A stretch of 64,000 nucleotides of DNA, taken from Rhodococcoides trifolii. Its GTDB lineage: Bacteria; Actinomycetota; Actinomycetes; Mycobacteriales; Mycobacteriaceae. The position numbers and the translations under genes are program-made. This document shows, in pieces, positions 32,938-43,442 of the stretch; position 1 is the stretch's first letter; each line of letters begins with the position of its first letter. The stretch is from contig NZ_BMCU01000006.1 of NCBI RefSeq assembly GCF_014635345.1, positions 124,001-188,000 on the forward strand, written 5' to 3'. The notes beneath the pieces were generated by a model. The model was not told where the DNA came from, searched no databases, and worked only from the letters and a program-made list of their open reading frames with translations.

Positions 32938-33789
32938 CTAAACCTTGTCGAGGACGAAGTCGTACGTGACTTCCCTGCCCCCGTCGACGTCGTGGGGGTC
33001 GAGGATGAGTTCGGGCTTCACGGCGTCGGCGACGTCGTTGTCGTTGTACTTGTCACCGGGGAAGTAGAGCTGGGTCGTGATCTGCTGGTATCCCGGAGCG
33101 GCGACCTTGAGGTGCAGGTGCGCTGGACGCCACGGGTGCCATCCGGCTGCGGAGATGAGCTTGCCGCAGGCACCGTCGGTGGGGATCTGATAGGGAGCGG
33201 GCTGCATCGTCCGAATCTGGAAGTGGCCGTTCTCGTCTGCGGTGACGGTGCCGCGCAGGTTCCACTCAGGAATGCCGGGGGCGAACTGCGAGTAGAAACC
33301 GTCGTCGTCGGCGTGCCAGATCTCGAGAACGGCACCCAACAACGGCTGTCCGGCAACATCAGTGACCTGACCCTGGAACAGCAACGGGGTTCCGTGCTCA
33401 CCGTCGCGCATGGGGAGGACGGCGTCGTGTCCGAGCTCCGGAGCGGCGGGGACGTAGTACGGGCCTTCGATGGTGCCCTTGCTGCCGTCGCGTGTCTCAC
33501 CGGCGACCTCCTCGACTGCGTGCTCGACCCACACGTCGAGGAACAGTGGCCATTCGCCGTCCTGCCCGACGTTGATCAGCCAGGACTTGAGAGCGTTGTA
33601 CTCGTCGTAGGTGACCTTGTGGTCGTGGACCGCCTTGTGCACGGCGGCTAGAACTTCGCGAGCGAGCAAGCTGACTCGTTCGGGCGGGGTGGCAGCGGCA
33701 GCGGCCGACTTGTCGGTGGCGAAGCGCGCGGTGGCGTTGGCCCCGGATGCAGCCGCCGTAGCGGTCTCGGGTGCGTGATCGATACTCAT
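32938..33789 (-). CDS. catA: Catechol 1,2-dioxygenase
   Basis: A 283-aa intradiol dioxygenase that cleaves catechol to cis,cis-muconate. The iron ligands are all visible: Tyr166 (GFYSQF), Tyr200 (PAPYQIP), His224 and His226 (RPAHLHLKV). The N-terminal helical dimerisation domain with an Ala-rich first 35 residues precedes the catalytic beta-sandwich. ATG 33789 follows AGGAG with good spacing; an in-frame TTG two codons upstream is rejected. Cotranscribed between catB and catC. Confidence 0.96.
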   Translation of the reverse strand: MSIDHAPETATAAASGANATARFATDKSAAAAATPPERVSLLAREVLAAVHKAVHDHKVTYDEYNALKSWLINVGQDGEWPLFLDVWVEHAVEEVAGETRDGSKGTIEGPYYVPAAPELGHDAVLPMRDGEHGTPLLFQGQVTDVAGQPLLGAVLEIWHADDDGFYSQFAPGIPEWNLRGTVTADENGHFQIRTMQPAPYQIPTDGACGKLISAAGWHPWRPAHLHLKVAAPGYQQITTQLYFPGDKYNDNDVADAVKPELILDPHDVDGGREVTYDFVLDKV

Positions 33790-33837
33790 GGACAACTCCT
33801 TGTGTGAAACGGGTACAGCGGGCTGGGTCGGAAAGAA

Positions 33838-34941
33838 TCAGGTGTCGAGCCGGTACCGGTCGAGCTTGTCGGGATCGATGTCGACGCCGATGCCCGCTCG
33901 GCCGGAGACGGCGAGCTCGCCGCCTCGGATCTGCAGCGGTTCGGTGAGCAGGTCGTCGCGCATGTCCAGGAAGTTGGACAGTTCGCCGGCGCGGCGGGAG
34001 GTCAGGTCGAACGCGGCGCCGAACGCGACCGTGCACGCCGATCCGAGCTGGCCGTCGATTTGATTTCCCATCACCACTTCGAGTCCGAGGCCTTCGCAGA
34101 GGTGATGTGCGCGTTGTGATCCGGTGAAGCCGGTGCGTGCGGTCTTGATACTGATTGCGGTGGCGGAACCGCCGAGCACCTCTCGGGTGATGTCTGCGGG
34201 GGTGACCGCCGACTCGTCGGCGACGAAGGGAACGGTCAGTTGCTGTACGAGCCAGCGTCGACCGAGAACGTCGTCGGCGGGGCACAGTTCTTCGGCGAGA
34301 GTGAGATTCAGATCGCTCATCTCCCGCATTGCGCGCGCGGATTCGGAGGCGGTCCACCCGCGATTGCCGTCGACGTACAGCTCGACGTCGTCGCCGAGAC
34401 CTTCACGTAGTGCGCGCACGACGGCGGTGTCCAGGGACACCGGGCGGCGACCGACCTTGACCTTGAACACCTCGATGCCGTAGTCGCTGCGCATGCGAGT
34501 GGCCTCGTCGACCATTGCCTCCGGAGTGTCGAATCCGAGCATGTGACTCACGCGCATGCGGTCGGTGAAGCCGCCGAGCATCTCGCTGACCGAGAGGTCG
34601 AGCGTGCGACCCAGTGCGTCCCAGATCGCCATGTCCACCGCAGCTTTCGCGACCGGATTGCCGACGGTTCGCGCCATCCGCGTGTGTGCGACCTCGCGCT
34701 CGGTCAACGTCAGGCCGAGTACCGCAGGCGCGAAGATGGTCTCGACGACCGCGACCAGACCCCGCTGCGTCTCCCCGTAGGTGAACGGCCGCGGCGGTGC
34801 GTCGGCTACACCGATCACACCGTCGTCGGTGTGCACGCGTACCAGCACGTGCTCGGCGGCGTGGACCTCACCGCTCGCGAACCGAAGCGGCTTGCGGTAG
34901 TCGATGGAATACGGGATGGCCTCGACAGCAACAATTTTCAC
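33838..34941 (-). CDS. catB: Muconate cycloisomerase
   Basis: A 367-aa enolase-superfamily enzyme making muconolactone from cis,cis-muconate. The catalytic Lys-x-Lys is at residues 160-162 (FKVKVG); the metal-binding residues appear in VDGNRGW, LAEELCP and VADESA, and a further Lys in SIKTARTGF. The GTG at 34941 overlaps the catR stop (GTGA), so the regulator and first enzyme are translationally coupled. The muconate rather than chloromuconate type is inferred from the intact chromosomal cat/ben context. Confidence 0.95.
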   Translation of the reverse strand: MKIVAVEAIPYSIDYRKPLRFASGEVHAAEHVLVRVHTDDGVIGVADAPPRPFTYGETQRGLVAVVETIFAPAVLGLTLTEREVAHTRMARTVGNPVAKAAVDMAIWDALGRTLDLSVSEMLGGFTDRMRVSHMLGFDTPEAMVDEATRMRSDYGIEVFKVKVGRRPVSLDTAVVRALREGLGDDVELYVDGNRGWTASESARAMREMSDLNLTLAEELCPADDVLGRRWLVQQLTVPFVADESAVTPADITREVLGGSATAISIKTARTGFTGSQRAHHLCEGLGLEVVMGNQIDGQLGSACTVAFGAAFDLTSRRAGELSNFLDMRDDLLTEPLQIRGGELAVSGRAGIGVDIDPDKLDRYRLDT

Positions 34942-35846
34942 GATATCGCCTCGATGTAGGTGGTCGGCAGAATGTCGGCGTCCTCGAGTGCACGTACCAG
35001 CGACGCCACGAGGGGTGAGGGTTCGGTGCGGTTCCACGCCAACGCCAGATCGATGGCGTCCGCGCCGGTGACGTCGCGAAAGACGACTCCGTCGAGCTTC
35101 ATCGCTCGCACCGACTCGGGCACCATGGCGACGCCGAGACCGGCCGCGATCAGTGCCAACAGGACGGAAGTGTCGGGGGCTTCGTGCTCGCGTCGGGGTG
35201 TGAAACCTGCTGCGCGGCAGCTTCGCACGACCACATCGTTCACCGCGGAGTGGGTATCGGAGTACATCACGAAGCTCTCGTAGGACACATCGAGGACTTC
35301 GAGCGCCGGCTCCTGTGCCAGTCGATGGTCGGCGGGTAGCGCGAGCACCAGCGATTCCGTGGCGATTGTGCGGACCACCAGATCGTTGCCCGCGACGGGG
35401 GGTCGTAAGACGGCCAGATCGAGCTCGTTCGATCGGAGACCGTCGACCTGAGCCGGTGTCAGGAGATCGCCGTGTACTTCGAGGACGACCTCCGGTAGCC
35501 GCTGGCGCAGCGCGCGTGCGATGGCGGGCAGTCGGTCGAAGGCGGCGGTGCCGGTGAATCCGATTCGGACGAGCCCGGTGCGGCCTTCGTCGATTCGCCG
35601 AACACCCTGCACGCTGTCCTCCAGGCCGCTCAGGAGGCGGACGGCTTCACGGTAGAAGAACTCGCCCGCGGGCGTGAGGCTGACCTGCCGGGTGGTGCGC
35701 GCCAGGAGTGTGACGCCCAATTCGGTTTCGAGTTGGCGAACCGACTGCGAGAGCGCCGGCTGCGCAAGGTAGAGCCGTTTCGCGGCTTGACCGAAGTGAC
35801 GGGTCTCGGCGACCGCGACGAAGTGCCTGAGATGTCGCAGCTCCAT
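34938..35846 (-). CDS. catR: LysR family regulator of the cat/ben genes
   Basis: A 302-aa LysR-type regulator. The N-terminal winged HTH (about residues 1-60, AAKRLYLAQPALSQSVRQLE) is followed by a periplasmic-binding-like effector domain, expected to sense cis,cis-muconate. ATG 35846. It is the promoter-proximal gene of the catBAC operon and divergent from benA; the palindrome at 35929-35944 is the obvious binding site. In several described rhodococcal cat clusters the regulator is, as I recall, of another family and divergent from catABC, so this arrangement recalls proteobacterial CatR. Confidence 0.9.
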   Translation of the reverse strand: MELRHLRHFVAVAETRHFGQAAKRLYLAQPALSQSVRQLETELGVTLLARTTRQVSLTPAGEFFYREAVRLLSGLEDSVQGVRRIDEGRTGLVRIGFTGTAAFDRLPAIARALRQRLPEVVLEVHGDLLTPAQVDGLRSNELDLAVLRPPVAGNDLVVRTIATESLVLALPADHRLAQEPALEVLDVSYESFVMYSDTHSAVNDVVVRSCRAAGFTPRREHEAPDTSVLLALIAAGLGVAMVPESVRAMKLDGVVFRDVTGADAIDLALAWNRTEPSPLVASLVRALEDADILPTTYIEAIS

Positions 35847-35928
35847 GCGTTTGCCTCCGTCTCGGTCGGTTTCGGGTGATCCACACCACGGTATGCCGCC
35901 GAACCATCCATGACAAAGATGTAGAACC

Positions 35929-35944
35929 CGCTTATTGATAAGCG
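35929..35944. promoter_or_regulatory. LysR-type operator in the catR/benA divergent promoter
   Basis: CGCTTATTGATAAGCG, perfect 7-bp arms with TG in the middle, containing the T-N11-A pattern of LysR sites. It is 83 bp upstream of catR and 103 bp upstream of benA, so one site could control both directions. Confidence 0.7.
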
Positions 35945-36046
35945 TGAACAATCAATGGACATCCTGGTCGGGACTAGGCGAACACCTGGTGTGACCGCCG
36001 CCACGTGGTGCCACAGTCGAGGAAACCCCTACATCTGGAGGACTGG

Positions 36047-37429
36047 ATGACCGAGATCCTGGACCACGTTCGCGACCAAGTTGCCGCCGCAGTGGTCGAC
36101 GACGCCGACGCCGGTGTCTACCGCGCCAACCGGACGATCTTCACCGACGAGGAGATCTTCGAGCTCGAAATGAAGCACATCTTCGAAGGCAACTGGATCT
36201 ACATCGCCCACGAGACCCAGATTCCGAACAACGGCGATTATTTCACCGTGCACATGGGTCGGCAGCCCGTGGTGATCACGCGCGACAAGGACGGTGAGCT
36301 GCATTGCCTCATCAACGCATGCGCCCACCGGGGAGCGATGCTGTGCCGCCGCAAGACCGACAACCGCCCGACCCTGACGTGCCCGTTCCACGGCTGGACG
36401 TTCCGCAACGACGGCACTCTGCTCAAGGTGAAAGACCCCGACGGCGCCGGCTACCCGGAGACCTTCGACGTCGACGGGTCTCACAACCTCACCAAGGTGC
36501 CCCAGTTCGCCAACTATCGGGGGTTCCTCTTCGCGAGCCTCAACCCCGACGTCTCGACGATCGAAGAGCACCTCGGTGACACCACCAAGGTCATCGACAT
36601 GCTGGTCGACCAGTCGCCCGACGGCCTCGAGGTGCTGCGCGGATCCTCGACCTACACCTTTGACGGAAACTGGAAGGTGCAGGCGGAGAACGGCGCCGAC
36701 GGCTACCACGTCAGCGCGGTGCACTGGAACTACGCGGCAACCACATCACGACGGAACAACGGCGAATCGAAGAACACCACCAAGGCGCTCGACGCCGGCG
36801 GTTGGGGCAAAACGGGCGGCGGTTACTGGTCGTACCCGAACGGGCACCTGTGCCTGTGGACTTGGGCGGCCAATCCGCAGGACCGTCCCCTCTGGGATCA
36901 GATGGATCAGCTGAAGGAGAAGTTCGGCGACGCCAAGGGCGAATTCATGGTGAAGGGTTCGCGCAACCTGTGTCTCTACCCGAACGTGTATCTGATGGAT
37001 CAGTTCAGTACGCAGATCCGGCACTTCCGGCCGATCGCGCCGAACAAGACCGAGGTGACCATCTACTGCATCGCCCCTAGAGGGGAGAGCAAAGAAGCAC
37101 GCTCGCACCGCATTCGGCAGTACGAGGACTTCTTCAACGCATCCGGCATGGCTACTCCGGACGACCTCGAAGAGTTCCGGTCGTGCCAGCTCACGTTCCA
37201 GGCCACGAACGCGCCGTGGAACGACATGAGCCGCGGCGCCGACCACTGGCTCTCCGGTCCCGACCCGGTGGCCGAAGCGCTCGACATGCACGGCGTGGTG
37301 TCGGCCGGGGTGAAGAACGAGGACGAAGGACTGTTCAACGTCCAGCACGGGTATTGGCGCAAGACGCTTCTGGCCGCCATCGATCGCTCTACGGAGAAGA
37401 CCGGCTCCTTGAACGACGGGACGAAATGA
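36047..37429 (+). CDS. benA: Benzoate 1,2-dioxygenase, large (alpha) subunit
   Basis: A 460-aa Rieske oxygenase alpha subunit. The Rieske cluster ligands are Cys92, His94, Cys112 and His115; the mononuclear iron site shows Asp218-Gly-Tyr-His221-x4-His226. With BenB and the reductase it converts benzoate to the cis-1,2-dihydrodiol carboxylate. ATG 36047 has GGAGGA upstream; the in-frame ATG at 36005 lacks a site. First gene of the ben operon, 1 nt before benB. Confidence 0.95.
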   Translation: MTEILDHVRDQVAAAVVDDADAGVYRANRTIFTDEEIFELEMKHIFEGNWIYIAHETQIPNNGDYFTVHMGRQPVVITRDKDGELHCLINACAHRGAMLCRRKTDNRPTLTCPFHGWTFRNDGTLLKVKDPDGAGYPETFDVDGSHNLTKVPQFANYRGFLFASLNPDVSTIEEHLGDTTKVIDMLVDQSPDGLEVLRGSSTYTFDGNWKVQAENGADGYHVSAVHWNYAATTSRRNNGESKNTTKALDAGGWGKTGGGYWSYPNGHLCLWTWAANPQDRPLWDQMDQLKEKFGDAKGEFMVKGSRNLCLYPNVYLMDQFSTQIRHFRPIAPNKTEVTIYCIAPRGESKEARSHRIRQYEDFFNASGMATPDDLEEFRSCQLTFQATNAPWNDMSRGADHWLSGPDPVAEALDMHGVVSAGVKNEDEGLFNVQHGYWRKTLLAAIDRSTEKTGSLNDGTK

Positions 37430-37430
37430 C

Positions 37431-37937
37431 ATGACCTCCACCGAAACCCGCATCACACAGACGGCGATCGAGCAGTTCCTGTATCGGGAAGCGCGCTACC
37501 TCGACGACCGCGAGTTCGAGAAGTGGCTCACCTGTTACGCCGACGACGTCGAGTACTGGATGCCCTCGTGGGGCGACGACGACCTTCTCACCGAAGACCC
37601 GCAGACCGACATCTCGCTCATCTACTACGAGAACAAGGGCGGCCTCGAGGACCGCGTGTTCCGAATCCGCACCGAACGATCCAGTGCGACATCGATTCCC
37701 GAACCGCGGACGAGCCACAACATCAGCAACGTCGAGGTCATCGAGCGAACAGGCGACATCGTCGATGTTCGATTCAACTGGCACACCATGTATTTCCGCT
37801 ACAAGACGATCGACCCGTACTACGGGACCTCGTTCTATTCGATCGACTTCTCGGGCGAGTCGCCGTTGATCCGCCGCAAGACCGTGGTGCTCAAGAACGA
37901 CTACATCCATCACGTCGTCGACATCTACCACTTCTGA
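37431..37937 (+). CDS. benB: Benzoate 1,2-dioxygenase, small (beta) subunit
   Basis: A 168-aa NTF2-fold beta subunit of a ring-hydroxylating dioxygenase, the expected length for BenB. It provides structure to the alpha3-beta3 oxygenase. YADDVEYWMPSW and the C-terminal NDYIHHVVDIYHF are typical. ATG 37431 directly follows the benA stop; the reductase gene begins 13 nt downstream with GGGAGG. Confidence 0.94.
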   Translation: MTSTETRITQTAIEQFLYREARYLDDREFEKWLTCYADDVEYWMPSWGDDDLLTEDPQTDISLIYYENKGGLEDRVFRIRTERSSATSIPEPRTSHNISNVEVIERTGDIVDVRFNWHTMYFRYKTIDPYYGTSFYSIDFSGESPLIRRKTVVLKNDYIHHVVDIYHF

Positions 37938-37950
37938 CAGGGAGGGAGTC

Positions 37951-40668
37951 ATGAGTCACCGTGTCGCGCTGTCCTTCGAGGATGGCGTCACCCGCTTCAT
38001 CACCGTGACCGACGGTCAGACGGTGGCGGACGCGGCCTACCGCTCGCGGATCAACATCCCACTCGACTGCCGCGACGGCGTCTGCGGAACCTGCAAAGCG
38101 GTGTGCGAATCCGGCGAATACGACGGAGGCACTTACCTCGAGGACGCACTCACCGAGGAGGAAGCCAAGGACGGATATTGCCTGCCCTGCAGCATGACTC
38201 CGGAATCGGACCTCGTCCTGCAGATCGCGAGCACGTCGGCGGTAGCCAAGACGCAAGCGTCGAAGTTCACGACGACGGTCACTGCCGTCGAGACGTTGTC
38301 GCCGACCACCGTTCGGCTGGCCGTGAAGTCGCCCGAGGGTGCCGATCTCGTGTTTCTGCCCGGTCAGTACGTCAACATCTCCGTCCCCGGGTCGCAGGAG
38401 ACGCGGTCGTATTCGTTCAGTTGTGTCCAGGGATCGGACGAGCTCTCGTTCCTCGTCAAACTGATCGACGGCGGGCTGATGTCGACCTACCTCTCCGACA
38501 CTGCGAAGGTCGGTGACGACATCTCCTTCACCGGCCCGCACGGCAGCTTCTTCCTCAGGGAAGCGGAACGGCCCGCACTTCTCTTGGCCGGCGGCACCGG
38601 TCTCGCGCCGGTTCTGTCGATTCTGCGCACCCTCGAATCGTCGGGCAGCACCCGAGACGTCCATCTCGTCTACGGCGCCAGCACCGACGACGACGTCGTG
38701 GAACTCGATACATTGAAGTCGTTGGCGGACAGTCTCGACGGATTCACCTGGGACTACTGCGTGTCCGACAAGGACACCACGGCCGAGAACACCGGGTACG
38801 TCACCGGTTTCATCAAGCCGGAACATCTGAACGACGGGGACGTCGCGGTCTACCTCTGTGGCCCGCCACCCATGGTCGAGGCCGTCCGCGGTCACTTCGT
38901 CGAGCAGTCGGTGGAGCCCACCGGCTTCTACTACGAGAAGTTCGCCCCGTCGGCAGCGGTGCCCGAGGACGAGTCCGGCGACGGCACGGCCGCGCCGGCC
39001 GACGAACAGCCGAAGGCCGAGGAGATCGCGCCTCCGACGAAACCCGTTCGTGGCGAACACGAGTCGCCCGACTTCGTCGTCCCCGACACCCTCGAGCACG
39101 AGACCGAAGACCGGTCATCACGCACCCTGTGCGGGCAGATCGTCTTCGATCGACGGGTGGCGACCATGGACGCGGTCGTCGGTGAGCATGTCGCGCCCGA
39201 CGAGGAACTGGTGGCGATGCGGTCGATTGCCGGGCAACGCGTCACCGCCGCTGTCGCCGGCGGATTTCCGTTCGTGGCCGACGAGGACCCGGATGTTCTG
39301 GTGACCGCCGACGCGACCGCCGTTGCAGGGCAGCACGTATGGACCGGCAGGGCGATCGAGCCGCTGACGATCCGCAAGGCCCCCACGGTCGAACCGGCCG
39401 GCTACGAGATCGGTGAGGAACACCCATCCGTTCACGAGTCGGACGCCGTCTTCGAAGCTCGTCGGGCGCTCGAACTCGGCGCGCTCGAACTGGTCATCGG
39501 TCGGCTCACCTCTCAGCAGATCGCCGGGTACCGCTTGCTCGCCGAAGCAACGACGAGGTACGTCGACGGGGACCGTTTCGTCGACGCCGCCGCCTACACC
39601 GAGACCAACGGCGCGTTCCACGACTACCTGTTCACCGCGACTCGCAACGAGCACCTGCTGCAGGCGTACACCGCACTGGGTGTGAAAGCTGCGATGGCCG
39701 AGGTGCTCGCGAACGCCACCTGGTGCGACCCGCTGTGCGCGCAGGACCACCTCGACATCGTCGACGCGTTCGAGGCCGGCGATCGGGAGGCCGCACGCAC
39801 CCTCATCGCGGACCACGCGGAGCGATCCAAGATCACCATGAAGCGTGCGATGCAGGAAAGGGTCGACACCAAGACGCCCAAGTTCGTTCACCCCGGCCGC
39901 TTCGCGGGCAAGGTCGTTCTGGTGACCGGTGCGGCCCAGGGCATCGGCGAATGGGTGGCACGGCGCATCTCCGCCGAGGGCGGCACGCTCGTCCTGGCGG
40001 ACCGCTCCGAACTCGTCGAGGCCATCGCAACCGAACTGTCGACCGACGACGCTCCGGCGCACGCGGTGCTGGCCGACCTCGAGACGTGGGAGGGTGCGTC
40101 CTCGCTCGTCGACGCAGCGATCGGGCGGCACGGCCGTATCGACGTCTCCATTCACGTTGTCGGAGGGACTATCTGGGCCAAGCCGTTTTGGGAGTATCCG
40201 CCGGAGCAGATCGAGAAGGAAATCGATCGCTCGCTCTGGCCGACGCTGTGGTCGTGCCGTGCCGCGATCCCGCACATGGTGGCGCAGGGGGCCGGGACGA
40301 TCGTGAACGTCTCGTCGGTGGCAACCCGTGGCATTCATCGGGTCCCGTACGCCGCGGCGAAGGGCGGGGTCAACGCCATCACCGCGGCACTCGCACTCGA
40401 AGCCGCCCCGCACGGTGTTCGGGTGGTTGCCACTGCTCCCGGTGGGACTCAAGCCCCGCCCCGGCGCATTGCCCGTGGGCCCGGCCCTGCCGACGATCAG
40501 GAACGCGAGTGGTATCAGGCGCTCGTCGATCAGACCGTCGACTCGTCGCTGTTGGGCAGGTACGGCACTCTCGACGAGCAGGCGGCGGCTATCTGTTTCC
40601 TGGCGTCGGACGAGGCGTCCTACATCACCGGAACCGTGTTACCGGTGGCGGGCGGTGACCTCGGGTGA
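37951..40668 (+). CDS. benCD: Fused BenC reductase - FCD-like domain - BenD dehydrogenase
   Basis: A 905-aa polypeptide with three recognisable parts. Residues 1-334 are BenC: plant-type 2Fe-2S (Cys40, Cys45, Cys48, Cys80), FAD motif RSYS at 152-155, NAD-binding GGTGLAP at 214-220 and CGPPPM at 303-308. Residues about 496-636 look like the all-helical FCD effector domain of GntR/FadR regulators, with His557 (FHDYL), His600 and His622 at the usual metal positions and no DNA-binding domain. Residues 648-905 are BenD, an SDR with TGAAQGIG at 659-666 and Tyr800-x3-Lys804. BenC is normally about 340 aa and BenD about 260. No frame break is visible; a GTG at the end starts the LuxR gene. Residues 335-495 match nothing I know. 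Confidence 0.9.
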   Translation: MSHRVALSFEDGVTRFITVTDGQTVADAAYRSRINIPLDCRDGVCGTCKAVCESGEYDGGTYLEDALTEEEAKDGYCLPCSMTPESDLVLQIASTSAVAKTQASKFTTTVTAVETLSPTTVRLAVKSPEGADLVFLPGQYVNISVPGSQETRSYSFSCVQGSDELSFLVKLIDGGLMSTYLSDTAKVGDDISFTGPHGSFFLREAERPALLLAGGTGLAPVLSILRTLESSGSTRDVHLVYGASTDDDVVELDTLKSLADSLDGFTWDYCVSDKDTTAENTGYVTGFIKPEHLNDGDVAVYLCGPPPMVEAVRGHFVEQSVEPTGFYYEKFAPSAAVPEDESGDGTAAPADEQPKAEEIAPPTKPVRGEHESPDFVVPDTLEHETEDRSSRTLCGQIVFDRRVATMDAVVGEHVAPDEELVAMRSIAGQRVTAAVAGGFPFVADEDPDVLVTADATAVAGQHVWTGRAIEPLTIRKAPTVEPAGYEIGEEHPSVHESDAVFEARRALELGALELVIGRLTSQQIAGYRLLAEATTRYVDGDRFVDAAAYTETNGAFHDYLFTATRNEHLLQAYTALGVKAAMAEVLANATWCDPLCAQDHLDIVDAFEAGDREAARTLIADHAERSKITMKRAMQERVDTKTPKFVHPGRFAGKVVLVTGAAQGIGEWVARRISAEGGTLVLADRSELVEAIATELSTDDAPAHAVLADLETWEGASSLVDAAIGRHGRIDVSIHVVGGTIWAKPFWEYPPEQIEKEIDRSLWPTLWSCRAAIPHMVAQGAGTIVNVSSVATRGIHRVPYAAAKGGVNAITAALALEAAPHGVRVVATAPGGTQAPPRRIARGPGPADDQEREWYQALVDQTVDSSLLGRYGTLDEQAAAICFLASDEASYITGTVLPVAGGDLG

Positions 40669-43442
40669 TCGCTCGCCCCGCCTCGGCGACGATACGTCGA
40701 TCGCCGGTGTCGGGGCCCGTATCGGGCTACGGTGACGCCGTGCCCCACCACCCACCTGTGGTCGGTCGCCGAGAGGTGGTCGACGACCTCCTCGCCGCCG
40801 TGGCCACCGGCGTCGACCGCTCCGTACTGGTCGTGGTGGACGGGGCGCCGGGAATGGGCACGACCGCCGTCGTCGACGCCGTTGCTGCGGCGTTCGCCGG
40901 GCGACTCCCGCACGCCTCGGTCACGCGAGTGGCGGCTGTCCCGTGGGAGTCGACGGTTCCCTTCGGAATTGTGGGGCAGTTGACGCCGGGAGCAGATTGG
41001 GCTGTCGACGCACCTGACTCGGTCGAGGATGCCAGATCATTTGCCGCAGCAGTGTCTCCGGACGACGGACCGCCGGTTCTGATCGTCGTGGACGACGCCC
41101 ACGACGCCGATCCGGAATCACTGCAGCTGCTGGCAAGCATGGTGCGGCACGTCCGCAGCCGGGGAATCACGGTGGTGTGTTCGCGTCACCTCCGGCCCGC
41201 CGGATCCCCGGCGGCGCAGGACATCCTGGACAAAGCCGCGGACGAGTGTGTCACCGTGGCGCCGCTGACCGTGTCCGACGTGTCGGAACTCGCAGCCGTT
41301 CGCGGGGTGGTCCTACCTCAGTCGGCGGCAGCGCATCTGTTGCAGCACACCGGTGGTCGGCCGCGGCACATCGTGGCACTGCTGGAGGAAACGCCGCGCG
41401 CGACGTGGAGAGGAAGCCGAGCGCACCTACCGGCTCCCGCGTTCGTCGAATCACGGATACGTGCCGAGCTGTCGCGCAGCGACCCGACGACACGAGCTCT
41501 GGCCGAGGCGGTCGCGATCATGTCCACTCCGACGTCCATTCCGGTGGTGTGTGCAGTATCGGGCGTGGGCGATCCGTGGGACGCGCTCGACACTGCCGTG
41601 GCATCGGGCCTGGTGCTCGTGCACCACCGGCCGACGGCCATCCTGCTCGAGACACCCGATCCGATGGTGCGCGCCGCCATCCTGGCGACGGTGAGCCTGT
41701 CCGAGCGATCGAGGTTGCACCGCCGAGCGGTCGACGTGGTCGAGGATCAGGCCGATGCGTTGGCGCACATCGTCGAATCGATGCCCCTTCCCGACGACAG
41801 CGTGTCCGCGCAGCTCGTCGCGTTGGCGGGTGAGCGAGCGGCGAAGGGAGAGTGGGGATCCGCCGCCCGGCTGTATGAACTGTCGTCTCGGTCCAGTCGT
41901 GATCCGGCCGCGCGGGACGAGAGGCTCGTTCTCGCGGTCGACGCCATGATCGGTGCGGGTGACGTGCCCGGGGCCGCCGCATACAGCGCGGAGATCGAGA
42001 GCCTGCGTGAAACCCCCATGCGTAACGCGGTTCTCGGATATCTCGCCATTCTGCGCGGCCGCCCGCACGAAGCGGAGGAGCGGTTGCGGCGTGCCTGGGA
42101 GTCGGTGCGGACACGTCACGATCCGCACACTGCGGCCATCGTCTGTCACCGTCAGGTGCTGCACAACCTTGCCCGGTGTCACGGCGGCGAGCTCGTGATG
42201 TGGGCGGACCGAGCCGTCGAGCTCGTCGGAGCCGACGACGCCACCGCGGTGGAAGCGCAATCGATTCGCGGTCTCGGACTCGGGGGGACGGGCCGAACGG
42301 CGGAAGCCCTCAGCAGTTACAGCGACCTGTGGAGTCACGCCAGCACCGGCGCGGTGGGGCAGCGAGTGCAGATGGGTGCGGGGTGGCTGCACCTGGCAGC
42401 CGACCGTGTCGACACCGCGCGCGCAGAGCTCGAATCTGCCTCTCCCACCGATTTTCTCGGAGGATCGACGCGAATTTCGTTGTGGGCGCACGCGTGGCTC
42501 GGCCGAACGTACTTCCTCACCGGCGAGTGGGACGCGGCCCTTCGAGTGGTCGGTGCCGGAATCGATCTTGTCGACCGGTCGGGATCGGTACTGATCGCGC
42601 CACTCCTGCACTGGACCGCGACGCAGATTCACGCTTTACGCGGAGACTGGCGCAAAGCCGAGAACAGCGCACGCGACGGTGACGCGGGAGCACGTGATTA
42701 CGAAATCATGCGGGTGCCAGCGTGTCTCGCACATGCGGCGATGTCCGAGGCGCGTGCCGACTACCCCGGGGTTCTGCGAGCACTGGCGCCGCTCACCGAG
42801 GAGTGGGCTGCTGACGACATCTCCGAACCCGGGTTCTGGCCATGGGCGGACGTCTACGCCAATGCTCTTGTGGTGGAGGGCCGACTGGACGAGGCGGAGG
42901 GGTTTCTCGATATTCACGAACGCCGGGCCACCGTCGCGGATCACCGGTCCACGCAGGCTCGCTTGGGGTATGCCCGCGGCCGACTGCACGGCGCGCGAGG
43001 AGATTTGGACGCTGCGCGAGCATCGTTCGACAGCGCACTCGGCGACCTCGCGGATCTCCCCTTGATCTACGACCGTGCGCGGGTGAACTTCGCCTACGGT
43101 CAGACGCTGCGACGCGCCGGAAAGCGGCGGGAAGCGGACGTCGTCATCTCAGCCGCCCGCGAGTGCTACCTCTCGATCGGGGCGAGTACCTATGTGGCGC
43201 GTTGCGATCGTGAGCTCAAGGCCGGGGGAATGCGTGCCGTCCTCAGGGATCGTCCGCTCGATGCGCTGACACCGCAGGAAGACGCTGTGGCGGCACTGGT
43301 GTCGACCGGTTTGAGCAATCGCGAAGTGGCCGCCGAACTGTTCCTGTCGGTGAAGACAGTGCAGTTCCACCTCACTCGGGTCTACGCAAAACTGGGGATC
43401 CGCTCGCGGGCAGAGCTGGCGGCGAAAGCATCCGCTGGCTGA
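40665..43442 (+). CDS. Large ATP-binding LuxR (LAL) regulator of the ben genes
   Basis: A 925-aa regulator. Walker A GAPGMGTT is at residues 60-67, a Walker B-like VLIVVDDAHD lies near residue 140, a long helical/TPR-like middle follows, and the C-terminal LuxR HTH begins at DALTPQEDAVAALVSTGLSN and ends with VKTVQFHLTRVYAKLGI. The GTG at 40665 overlaps the benCD stop (GTGA); a GTG at 40740 is an alternative giving 900 aa. The position suggests it activates ben, beside the CatR-type control at the other end of the unit. Confidence 0.87.
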   Translation: MIARPASATIRRSPVSGPVSGYGDAVPHHPPVVGRREVVDDLLAAVATGVDRSVLVVVDGAPGMGTTAVVDAVAAAFAGRLPHASVTRVAAVPWESTVPFGIVGQLTPGADWAVDAPDSVEDARSFAAAVSPDDGPPVLIVVDDAHDADPESLQLLASMVRHVRSRGITVVCSRHLRPAGSPAAQDILDKAADECVTVAPLTVSDVSELAAVRGVVLPQSAAAHLLQHTGGRPRHIVALLEETPRATWRGSRAHLPAPAFVESRIRAELSRSDPTTRALAEAVAIMSTPTSIPVVCAVSGVGDPWDALDTAVASGLVLVHHRPTAILLETPDPMVRAAILATVSLSERSRLHRRAVDVVEDQADALAHIVESMPLPDDSVSAQLVALAGERAAKGEWGSAARLYELSSRSSRDPAARDERLVLAVDAMIGAGDVPGAAAYSAEIESLRETPMRNAVLGYLAILRGRPHEAEERLRRAWESVRTRHDPHTAAIVCHRQVLHNLARCHGGELVMWADRAVELVGADDATAVEAQSIRGLGLGGTGRTAEALSSYSDLWSHASTGAVGQRVQMGAGWLHLAADRVDTARAELESASPTDFLGGSTRISLWAHAWLGRTYFLTGEWDAALRVVGAGIDLVDRSGSVLIAPLLHWTATQIHALRGDWRKAENSARDGDAGARDYEIMRVPACLAHAAMSEARADYPGVLRALAPLTEEWAADDISEPGFWPWADVYANALVVEGRLDEAEGFLDIHERRATVADHRSTQARLGYARGRLHGARGDLDAARASFDSALGDLADLPLIYDRARVNFAYGQTLRRAGKRREADVVISAARECYLSIGASTYVARCDRELKAGGMRAVLRDRPLDALTPQEDAVAALVSTGLSNREVAAELFLSVKTVQFHLTRVYAKLGIRSRAELAAKASAG

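Follow-up and report, generated by a model that had tools for sequence, protein, structure and literature searches.

Two enzymes of benzoate degradation are joined around an FCD sensor domain in many soil actinobacteria. We analysed such a protein encoded in a stretch of 64,000 nucleotides from Rhodococcoides trifolii (assembly GCF_014635345.1, contig NZ_BMCU01000006.1, positions 124,001 to 188,000 of the forward strand; the whole stretch is called the window). One open frame of 905 codons, with ATG at 37951 and the stop codon at 40666-40668, encodes the reductase BenC, the FCD domain and the dehydrogenase BenD in this order. From sequence and by analogy with characterized proteins, the FCD domain may be a metal-assisted carboxylate sensor that gates the reductase, a reading in which our confidence is about even. 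The fusion and its parts are as follows (SDR, short-chain dehydrogenase/reductase; FAD, flavin adenine dinucleotide; NAD, nicotinamide adenine dinucleotide; pLDDT, predicted local distance difference test).

37951-40668, forward strand: benC-FCD-benD triple fusion, 905 residues (open frame, domains, conservation in relatives)
37957-38952, forward strand: BenC reductase with [2Fe-2S], FAD and NAD modules, residues 3-334 (NF040810)
38953-39402, forward strand: variable low-confidence linker, residues 335-484 (pLDDT mostly below 50; mean identity 29.1%)
39403-39876, forward strand: FCD domain, residues 485-642, Pfam match at 500-624 (PF07729 and fold match)
39607-39816, forward strand: predicted zinc ligands N553, H557, H600 and H622 (conservation and the spacing of Atu1419)
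39898-40665, forward strand: BenD dihydrodiol dehydrogenase of the SDR family, residues 650-905 (NF040811)

The BenC part matched the equivalog model NF040810 over its entire length (profile positions 1-333 of 333) with 486.7 bits, above the cut-off of 430, and the BenD part scored 413.6 bits with the equivalog model NF040811 (cut-off 380). Among 38 aligned fusions, C40, C45, C48, C80, R152, G214-G217 (GGTG) and C303-P306 of BenC are invariant; we take these to be the [2Fe-2S] cysteines and the flavin/NAD motifs. T659, G660, G664, G666, Y800 and K804 of BenD, presumably the SDR glycine motif and Y-x3-K, are likewise invariant. The initial annotation had described an uninterrupted BenC-FCD-BenD frame and had named a frameshift as one way in which this could be wrong. 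The frame, the domain profiles and the relatives bear the description out. A frameshift or assembly artefact was looked for and rejected: of 80 loci from named genomes, 79 have an open frame with the three parts in this order, as do 17 of the 37 genomes searched in the window's genus, and the arrangement recurs in the family survey.

Conservation of the FCD domain and its metal-site residues

The region between the two enzymes matched the FCD profile PF07729 at residues 500-624 with 61.2 bits (cut-off 24.3). The AlphaFold2 model of residues 485-644 had a pLDDT of 85.5 and a predicted template modelling score (pTM) of 0.80, and Foldseek returned 310 matches to it at E <= 10, ten of them at E <= 0.001 (best 8e-5). 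The best 50 of the 310 are all titled as regulators, many of them of the GntR family, which supports the all-helical FCD fold; those whose titles are silent on family, such as DhdR, McbR and PmiR, we take to be GntR regulators too. Searches of solved structures by sequence were less clear than the fold search: the FCD profile found nothing at E <= 0.05, and the single sequence found DhdR/PDHR at E 0.019. The GntR helix-turn-helix (PF00392) had no match at E <= 1 anywhere in the window protein, nor at E <= 0.01 in its relatives L136, L159, L228 and L031. With no N-terminal winged helix-turn-helix detected ahead of the FCD domain, the window protein does not fit the usual definition of a GntR regulator.

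In the VanR protein Atu1419, zinc is bound by Asn137, His141, His192 and His214 (PMC7797058). The window's FCD domain shares the Asn-x3-His step and the 22-residue step between the last two His residues, so that by sequence it has the Asn/Asp and three His at fixed spacing that mark the metal-binding FCD subgroup. The three His also occur in TM0439 and HypR, and for citrate in CitO one of the His is important together with an Arg and a Phe (PMC6608401); by analogy, R504 may be the counterpart of that Arg. In other FCD proteins, the matching residues bind zinc and small acids bind alongside (PMC7797058, PMC6608401). Atu1419, TM0439, HypR and CitO thus share the FCD fold and the metal-site residues with the window protein but have a DNA-binding winged helix, which was not detected in the latter.

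Below, frames with all three parts are called triples and BenC-FCD frames doubles; for residue conservation and identity, locus L067 was dropped, and L001-L017, which largely duplicate genomes of L032-L111, were left out except the window's own; one of the two motif counts cited for AGQ repeat 1 below still includes these duplicates. R504, N553, H557, H600 and H622 are present in all 81 triples and in all three cytochrome P450 fusions described below. In the 44 doubles, H557, H600 and H622 are found without exception, N553 in 91% and R504 in 98%. Mean pairwise identity over the 81 triples is highest in the FCD domain (76.1%), followed by BenD (71.9%), BenC (70.7%) and the linker (29.1%). This rank and the kept pocket residues argue for a working pocket. 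A ligand-binding domain of FCD type that lacks a DNA-binding part had been postulated at about residues 496-636, with profile search and structure prediction as the way to check it; both analyses recovered the domain, the pocket residues agree, and the placement was right to within a few residues.

Distribution of the fusion

With the window's FCD domain as the query, the best 80 of 92 loci in named genomes were retrieved, so that this set favours triples; domain boundaries in relatives were taken from BLAST segments. FCD and BenD lie in one frame in all 80, and BenC is also unbroken in 79. The exception, L067 (4517-7242), has an interrupted BenC frame and comes from a Pseudonocardia metagenome bin. 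Triples occur in Rhodococcus, Williamsia, Gordonia, Amycolatopsis, Nocardioides, Pseudonocardia, Saccharopolyspora, Prauserella, Mycobacterium/Mycolicibacterium, Nocardia, Actinomycetospora, Knoellia, Propioniferax, Kribbia and other genera, and a Tsukamurella plasmid also carries one.

A survey of 331 genomes of the family, queried with BenC alone (E <= 1e-70), gives a fairer count than the FCD-based search. BenC was present in 112 genomes, in 60 of them within a frame of triple length (at least 858 codons; most were judged by this length, and the frames from the window's genus by reading). All of the other 52 were read: 43 have BenC-FCD and a separate BenD, 5 an FCD-less BenC, and 4 are cut at a contig end. 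The survey of relatives that the initial annotation suggested finds the fusion (by triple length) in 60 of the 112 family genomes with BenC and, within the genus, in 17 of 37 genomes (the window's own included); the remaining 20 of the genus had no BenC match at the same threshold (E <= 1e-70). Among 394 genomes of the class, 15 had an FCD match at E <= 1e-12, namely 11 triple-length frames, one double (G062) and three frames of 399-410 codons. BenC at E <= 1e-75 was found in 14 genomes: the same 11, G062, the FCD-less G401 and a distant reductase (39% identity).

One strain with the fusion has been published, Gordonia alkanivorans YC-RL2, whose benC and benD were reported to be fused with an FCD domain (PMC6362181). 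Our set includes the triple fusion of a further strain of this species (L064). As far as the available portion goes, the YC-RL2 account is a description that offers no mechanism or evolutionary history and no survey, and that mentions neither the metal site nor the linker motif. For Rhodococcus TG-1, benC was termed an FCD domain-containing protein, with a separate benD adjacent (PMC11858498); for R. ruber Chol-4, a figure legend labels benC as reductase/dehydrogenase and shows a benD in addition (PMC6498646). The available portions of these open-access papers on benC fusions (PMC6362181, PMC11858498, PMC6498646) contain no mechanism, survey or metal site. Pseudomonas and plasmids of Paraburkholderia aromaticivorans and Roseomonas encode the same enzymes in the same gene order; unlike in the window, their BenC has 336-347 residues and no FCD domain, and BenD is separate. 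The earlier remark that BenC and BenD are separate proteins in familiar systems thus holds for these annotated proteobacterial examples but not for Gordonia, for which the fusion had been printed (PMC6362181).

History of the fusion

A BenC tree was built from 84 sequences (27 of the 81 triples, 44 doubles, 5 FCD-less proteins, 3 P450 fusions and 5 proteobacterial proteins). The sampled triples form one clade (support 100/99) with two FCD-less BenCs nested in it, and the doubles occupy other actinobacterial branches. This pattern suggests that an early fusion in actinobacteria linked the FCD domain to BenC and that BenD followed once, later, probably by fusion with the downstream gene.

The two nested FCD-less proteins, L137 and L224 (genus g23), stand beside a Mycolicibacterium triple. 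The other three, L213, L219 and L223, are placed among doubles, with a weaker branch for L223. Apparently, the FCD domain was lost from BenC about four times. In L137 (5560-6720, reverse strand) and L224 (3384-4832, reverse strand), BenC is separate from BenD and has no FCD domain despite its position among triples, and the BenC ends retain one linker motif (RCIAGQLV). In a tree of FCD domains (22 triples and 21 doubles, with a distant outgroup), rooting was unreliable and the root fell among triples.

FCD domains joined to other reductases

Five plasmid records of Paraburkholderia contain closely related FCD domains that are 86-100% identical among themselves. In the three loci that were read, a BenC-type reductase, an FCD domain and a cytochrome P450 share one 929-residue frame (the P450 was assigned by Pfam for one of them).

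L158, 3987-6776: reductase-FCD-P450
L159, 3987-6776: reductase-FCD-P450
L160, 3939-6728: reductase-FCD-P450

No BenD was found at 45% identity or more in these loci (stretches of 10 kb). Their FCD domain shares 41-45% identity with five of six BenC FCD domains compared, 35% with the sixth and 29-32% with those of flavin reductases. In L158, the sole annotated record, the fusion is annotated as benC; a helix-turn-helix regulator gene adjoins it, and a gene for an SDR oxidoreductase is located about 1 kb past it.

L156 (1465-2625, reverse strand) and L157 (724-1935, forward strand), which are among the three nearest FCD matches outside BenC in the 394-genome survey, are flavin reductase-GntR helix-turn-helix-FCD proteins from genomes of the class. 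Like the fusion, they have a reductase with a C-terminal FCD domain; they differ in that the reductase belongs to another family, the helix-turn-helix is kept and the FCD domain is 30-31% identical to the window's. Such a protein is perhaps a reductase doubling as a regulator.

Possible control of the reductase by the FCD domain

The relatives of the FCD domain that were read lie C-terminal to a reductase, in the 43 family doubles and L136, in the triples, in the P450 fusions and in L156 and L157. Because the domain follows the reductase while the downstream partner varies, we favour control of the reductase over control of BenD, scaffolding or channelling. On this view, the BenC part supplies electrons to the BenAB dioxygenase, and the BenD part oxidises the resulting diol acid to catechol. 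The FCD domain, presumably derived from a GntR-type regulator, would in its ligand-free form restrain NADH oxidation or electron delivery by the reductase; binding of benzoate (or the diol acid), possibly assisted by the metal, would free the reductase, and NADH would be spared when there is no substrate to oxygenate. The initial annotation had likewise suggested that the domain might respond allosterically to benzoate, the diol or a downstream acid, which agrees with the reading favoured here. The linker repeats described below would serve as a docking or spacing element.

A comparable device has been reviewed for HpaC of Acinetobacter baumannii, in which a MarR domain is autoinhibitory and 4-hydroxyphenylacetate relieves the inhibition, with flavin reduction at least 30-fold faster (PMC10816480). 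In both proteins, the reductase component of an aromatic oxygenase bears a regulator-derived C-terminal domain. HpaC is a flavin reductase with a MarR fold, whereas the window fusion has an iron-sulphur flavoprotein reductase, an FCD fold and a dehydrogenase in addition; gating is described for the former (PMC10816480) and is predicted for the latter.

Several observations weigh against gating of the reductase by the FCD domain. Ordinary GntR regulators with related FCD domains were also matched (28-32% identity), so the presence of the domain alone is no sign of a reductase. Nor is it essential, because the five FCD-less BenC-bearing family genomes of 112 (L137, L213, L219, L223 and L224) keep BenD. 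In the BenC tree, the reductases of the Paraburkholderia fusions fall among proteobacterial BenC proteins, and for this reason the reductase-FCD-P450 architecture may be an independent event; the FCD tree leaves a common origin of the P450-fusion and BenC FCD domains unsettled. The program flagged several rows of the BenC tree for their long branches. In the FCD domain of L156, Tyr replaces the last metal-site His, and the structure model of the full window protein gave no reliable domain arrangement (pTM 0.48). Finally, the FCD-BenD junction of triples is short and near-constant (4-10 residues, mostly 7, in 98 rows selected for all three parts) and the BenC-FCD linker long and widely varying, an arrangement that suits control of BenD as well.

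In that alternative, the FCD domain serves BenD: it would bind the diol acid (or its keto acid) and hand it over to the dehydrogenase or control it. We consider this rather unlikely. A short junction is expected from fusion of adjacent genes anyway, the domain is attached to BenC next to a separate BenD in 43 family genomes, and the three Paraburkholderia fusions have no nearby BenD at the identity given above, though L158 does have the SDR gene. To a similar degree unlikely is a purely structural role, in which the FCD domain would be a dimerisation module that unites BenC/BenD copies or shapes the BenAB complex. FCD-containing C-terminal domains do dimerise in most VanR-type regulators (PMC7797058), and a conserved interface would likewise account for sequence conservation. 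What is conserved here, however, includes the metal-site residues and R504, which are pocket features in FCD regulators (PMC6608401), and the 5 of 112 genomes without an FCD domain nevertheless keep both enzymes.

The initial annotation had suggested exchange of NADH/NAD+ between reductase and dehydrogenase as the purpose of the fusion. BenC consumes NADH and BenD produces it in consecutive steps, and both sets of active-site motifs are intact in the 38 aligned rows. This purpose appears improbable: the linker is long, variable and modelled with low confidence, the FCD-reductase link occurs without a fused BenD (43 of 112 family genomes) or with a P450 as the partner, and in L137 and L224, nested among triples, BenC and BenD are back in separate frames. 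The FCD domain therefore seems to serve the reductase rather than a tight reductase-dehydrogenase channel. It is very improbable that the domain is a functionless remnant of a GntR gene trapped in the fusion, since its apparently about four losses in 5 of 112 family genomes stand against a conservation over the 81 triples that exceeds that of both enzymes and against the kept pocket residues.

If the FCD domain does gate the reductase, regulator-derived sensors, of FCD as well as MarR type, would be a recurring means by which aromatic oxygenases avoid wasting NADH; a Rieske dioxygenase reductase would be one example and a reductase-fused P450 perhaps another. It would also offer engineers a substrate-gated reductase module, and the five FCD-less BenC relatives named above are natural controls.

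Tandem motifs in the linker

Residues 335-484, within the part (335-495) that the initial annotation had left unexplained, form a variable linker with a tandem motif. Three copies are present in the window protein, the third outside the strict pattern R-x-[ILVM]-x-G-[QR].

39109-39162, forward strand: AGQ repeat 1, RTLCGQ at residue 391 (motif statistics; low-confidence strand-turn-strand)
39208-39261, forward strand: AGQ repeat 2, RSIAGQ at residue 424 (motif statistics)
39304-39360, forward strand: AGQ repeat 3, degenerate, TAVAGQ at residue 456 without the Arg (by eye; profile E 0.008)

The linkers of the 81 triples range from 65 to 224 residues and contain 171 copies of the strict pattern, compared with a mean of 1.02 and a maximum of 4 in 200 shuffles. 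Four linkers have no copy, 10 have one, 41 two, 25 three and 1 four; adjacent copies are 28-40 residues apart in 78 of 94 cases (median 32). None of the 44 doubles has the pattern. With a stricter version, six-frame open frames of L031-L111 gave 110 occurrences in fusions (77,211 residues) and 2 outside them (1,312,129 residues). AlphaFold models each of the window's three copies as a strand-turn-strand with low confidence.

No hidden helix-turn-helix emerged from a Pfam search of residues 335-484 at E <= 1. Searched against the window's own genome, the linker matched, besides itself, two sequences at E 0.35 and 0.74 that seem unrelated on reading of the frames. A 24-position profile of the motif found no convincing protein in five genomes beyond BenC fusions and BenC tails; the best other match (E 6e-4) lies in a 40-codon frame with a stop, and the rest had E >= 0.13. 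The repeats are not described in the available literature on benC fusions, and no literature search was aimed at the motif itself. Six doubles, all of genus g157 (L226, L228, L229, L231, L232 and L233), have linkers of 155-222 residues in which another motif, A-R-P-x-G-[YFHL], occurs two or three times and the AGQ motif is absent.

Judging from these statistics, the repeats are likely a short contact element, putatively for docking or spacing, and may mark an assembly contact. A bolder version is possible, though we doubt it: a self-regulating benzoate metabolon in which a zinc-FCD domain would sense benzoate or the diol acid and gate NADH electrons, and the R-x-I-A-G-Q motifs would dock the reductase-dehydrogenase onto BenAB, presumably a three-fold symmetric dioxygenase. 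One protein would then oxygenate and rearomatise benzoate only with the substrate present.

Gene neighbourhood

The genes around the fusion are listed below, with the tested interval in brackets where it differs.

32938-33795, reverse strand: catechol 1,2-dioxygenase (PF00775, PF04444)
33838-35037, reverse strand: muconate cycloisomerase-like enzyme (tested as 33838-34941; PF13378, PF02746)
34938-35951, reverse strand: divergent LysR-type regulator (tested as 34938-35870; PF03466, PF00126)
36005-37429, forward strand: benA, benzoate 1,2-dioxygenase large subunit, start approximate (tested as 36020-37429; TIGR03229, Rieske and ring-hydroxylase domains)
37431-37937, forward strand: benB, benzoate 1,2-dioxygenase small subunit (TIGR03232, 266.2 bits, cut-off 225.55)
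37940-37946, forward strand: likely ribosome-binding site GGGAGGG, 4 bases ahead of the fusion ATG (read directly)
40665-43442, forward strand: LuxR-type regulator with AAA domain, start approximate (PF00196, PF13191)

The benA product scored 789.7 bits with TIGR03229 (cut-off 780.95). With benAB upstream of the fusion and the LysR, muconate cycloisomerase-like and catechol 1,2-dioxygenase genes nearby, the locus reads by sequence as a pathway from benzoate to catechol and beyond. A scan for AGGAGG across the window gave chance level only. The frame of the LuxR-type regulator overlaps the stop codon of the fusion, and large frames that resemble this regulator by eye adjoin the ben genes in L136, L137 and L138.

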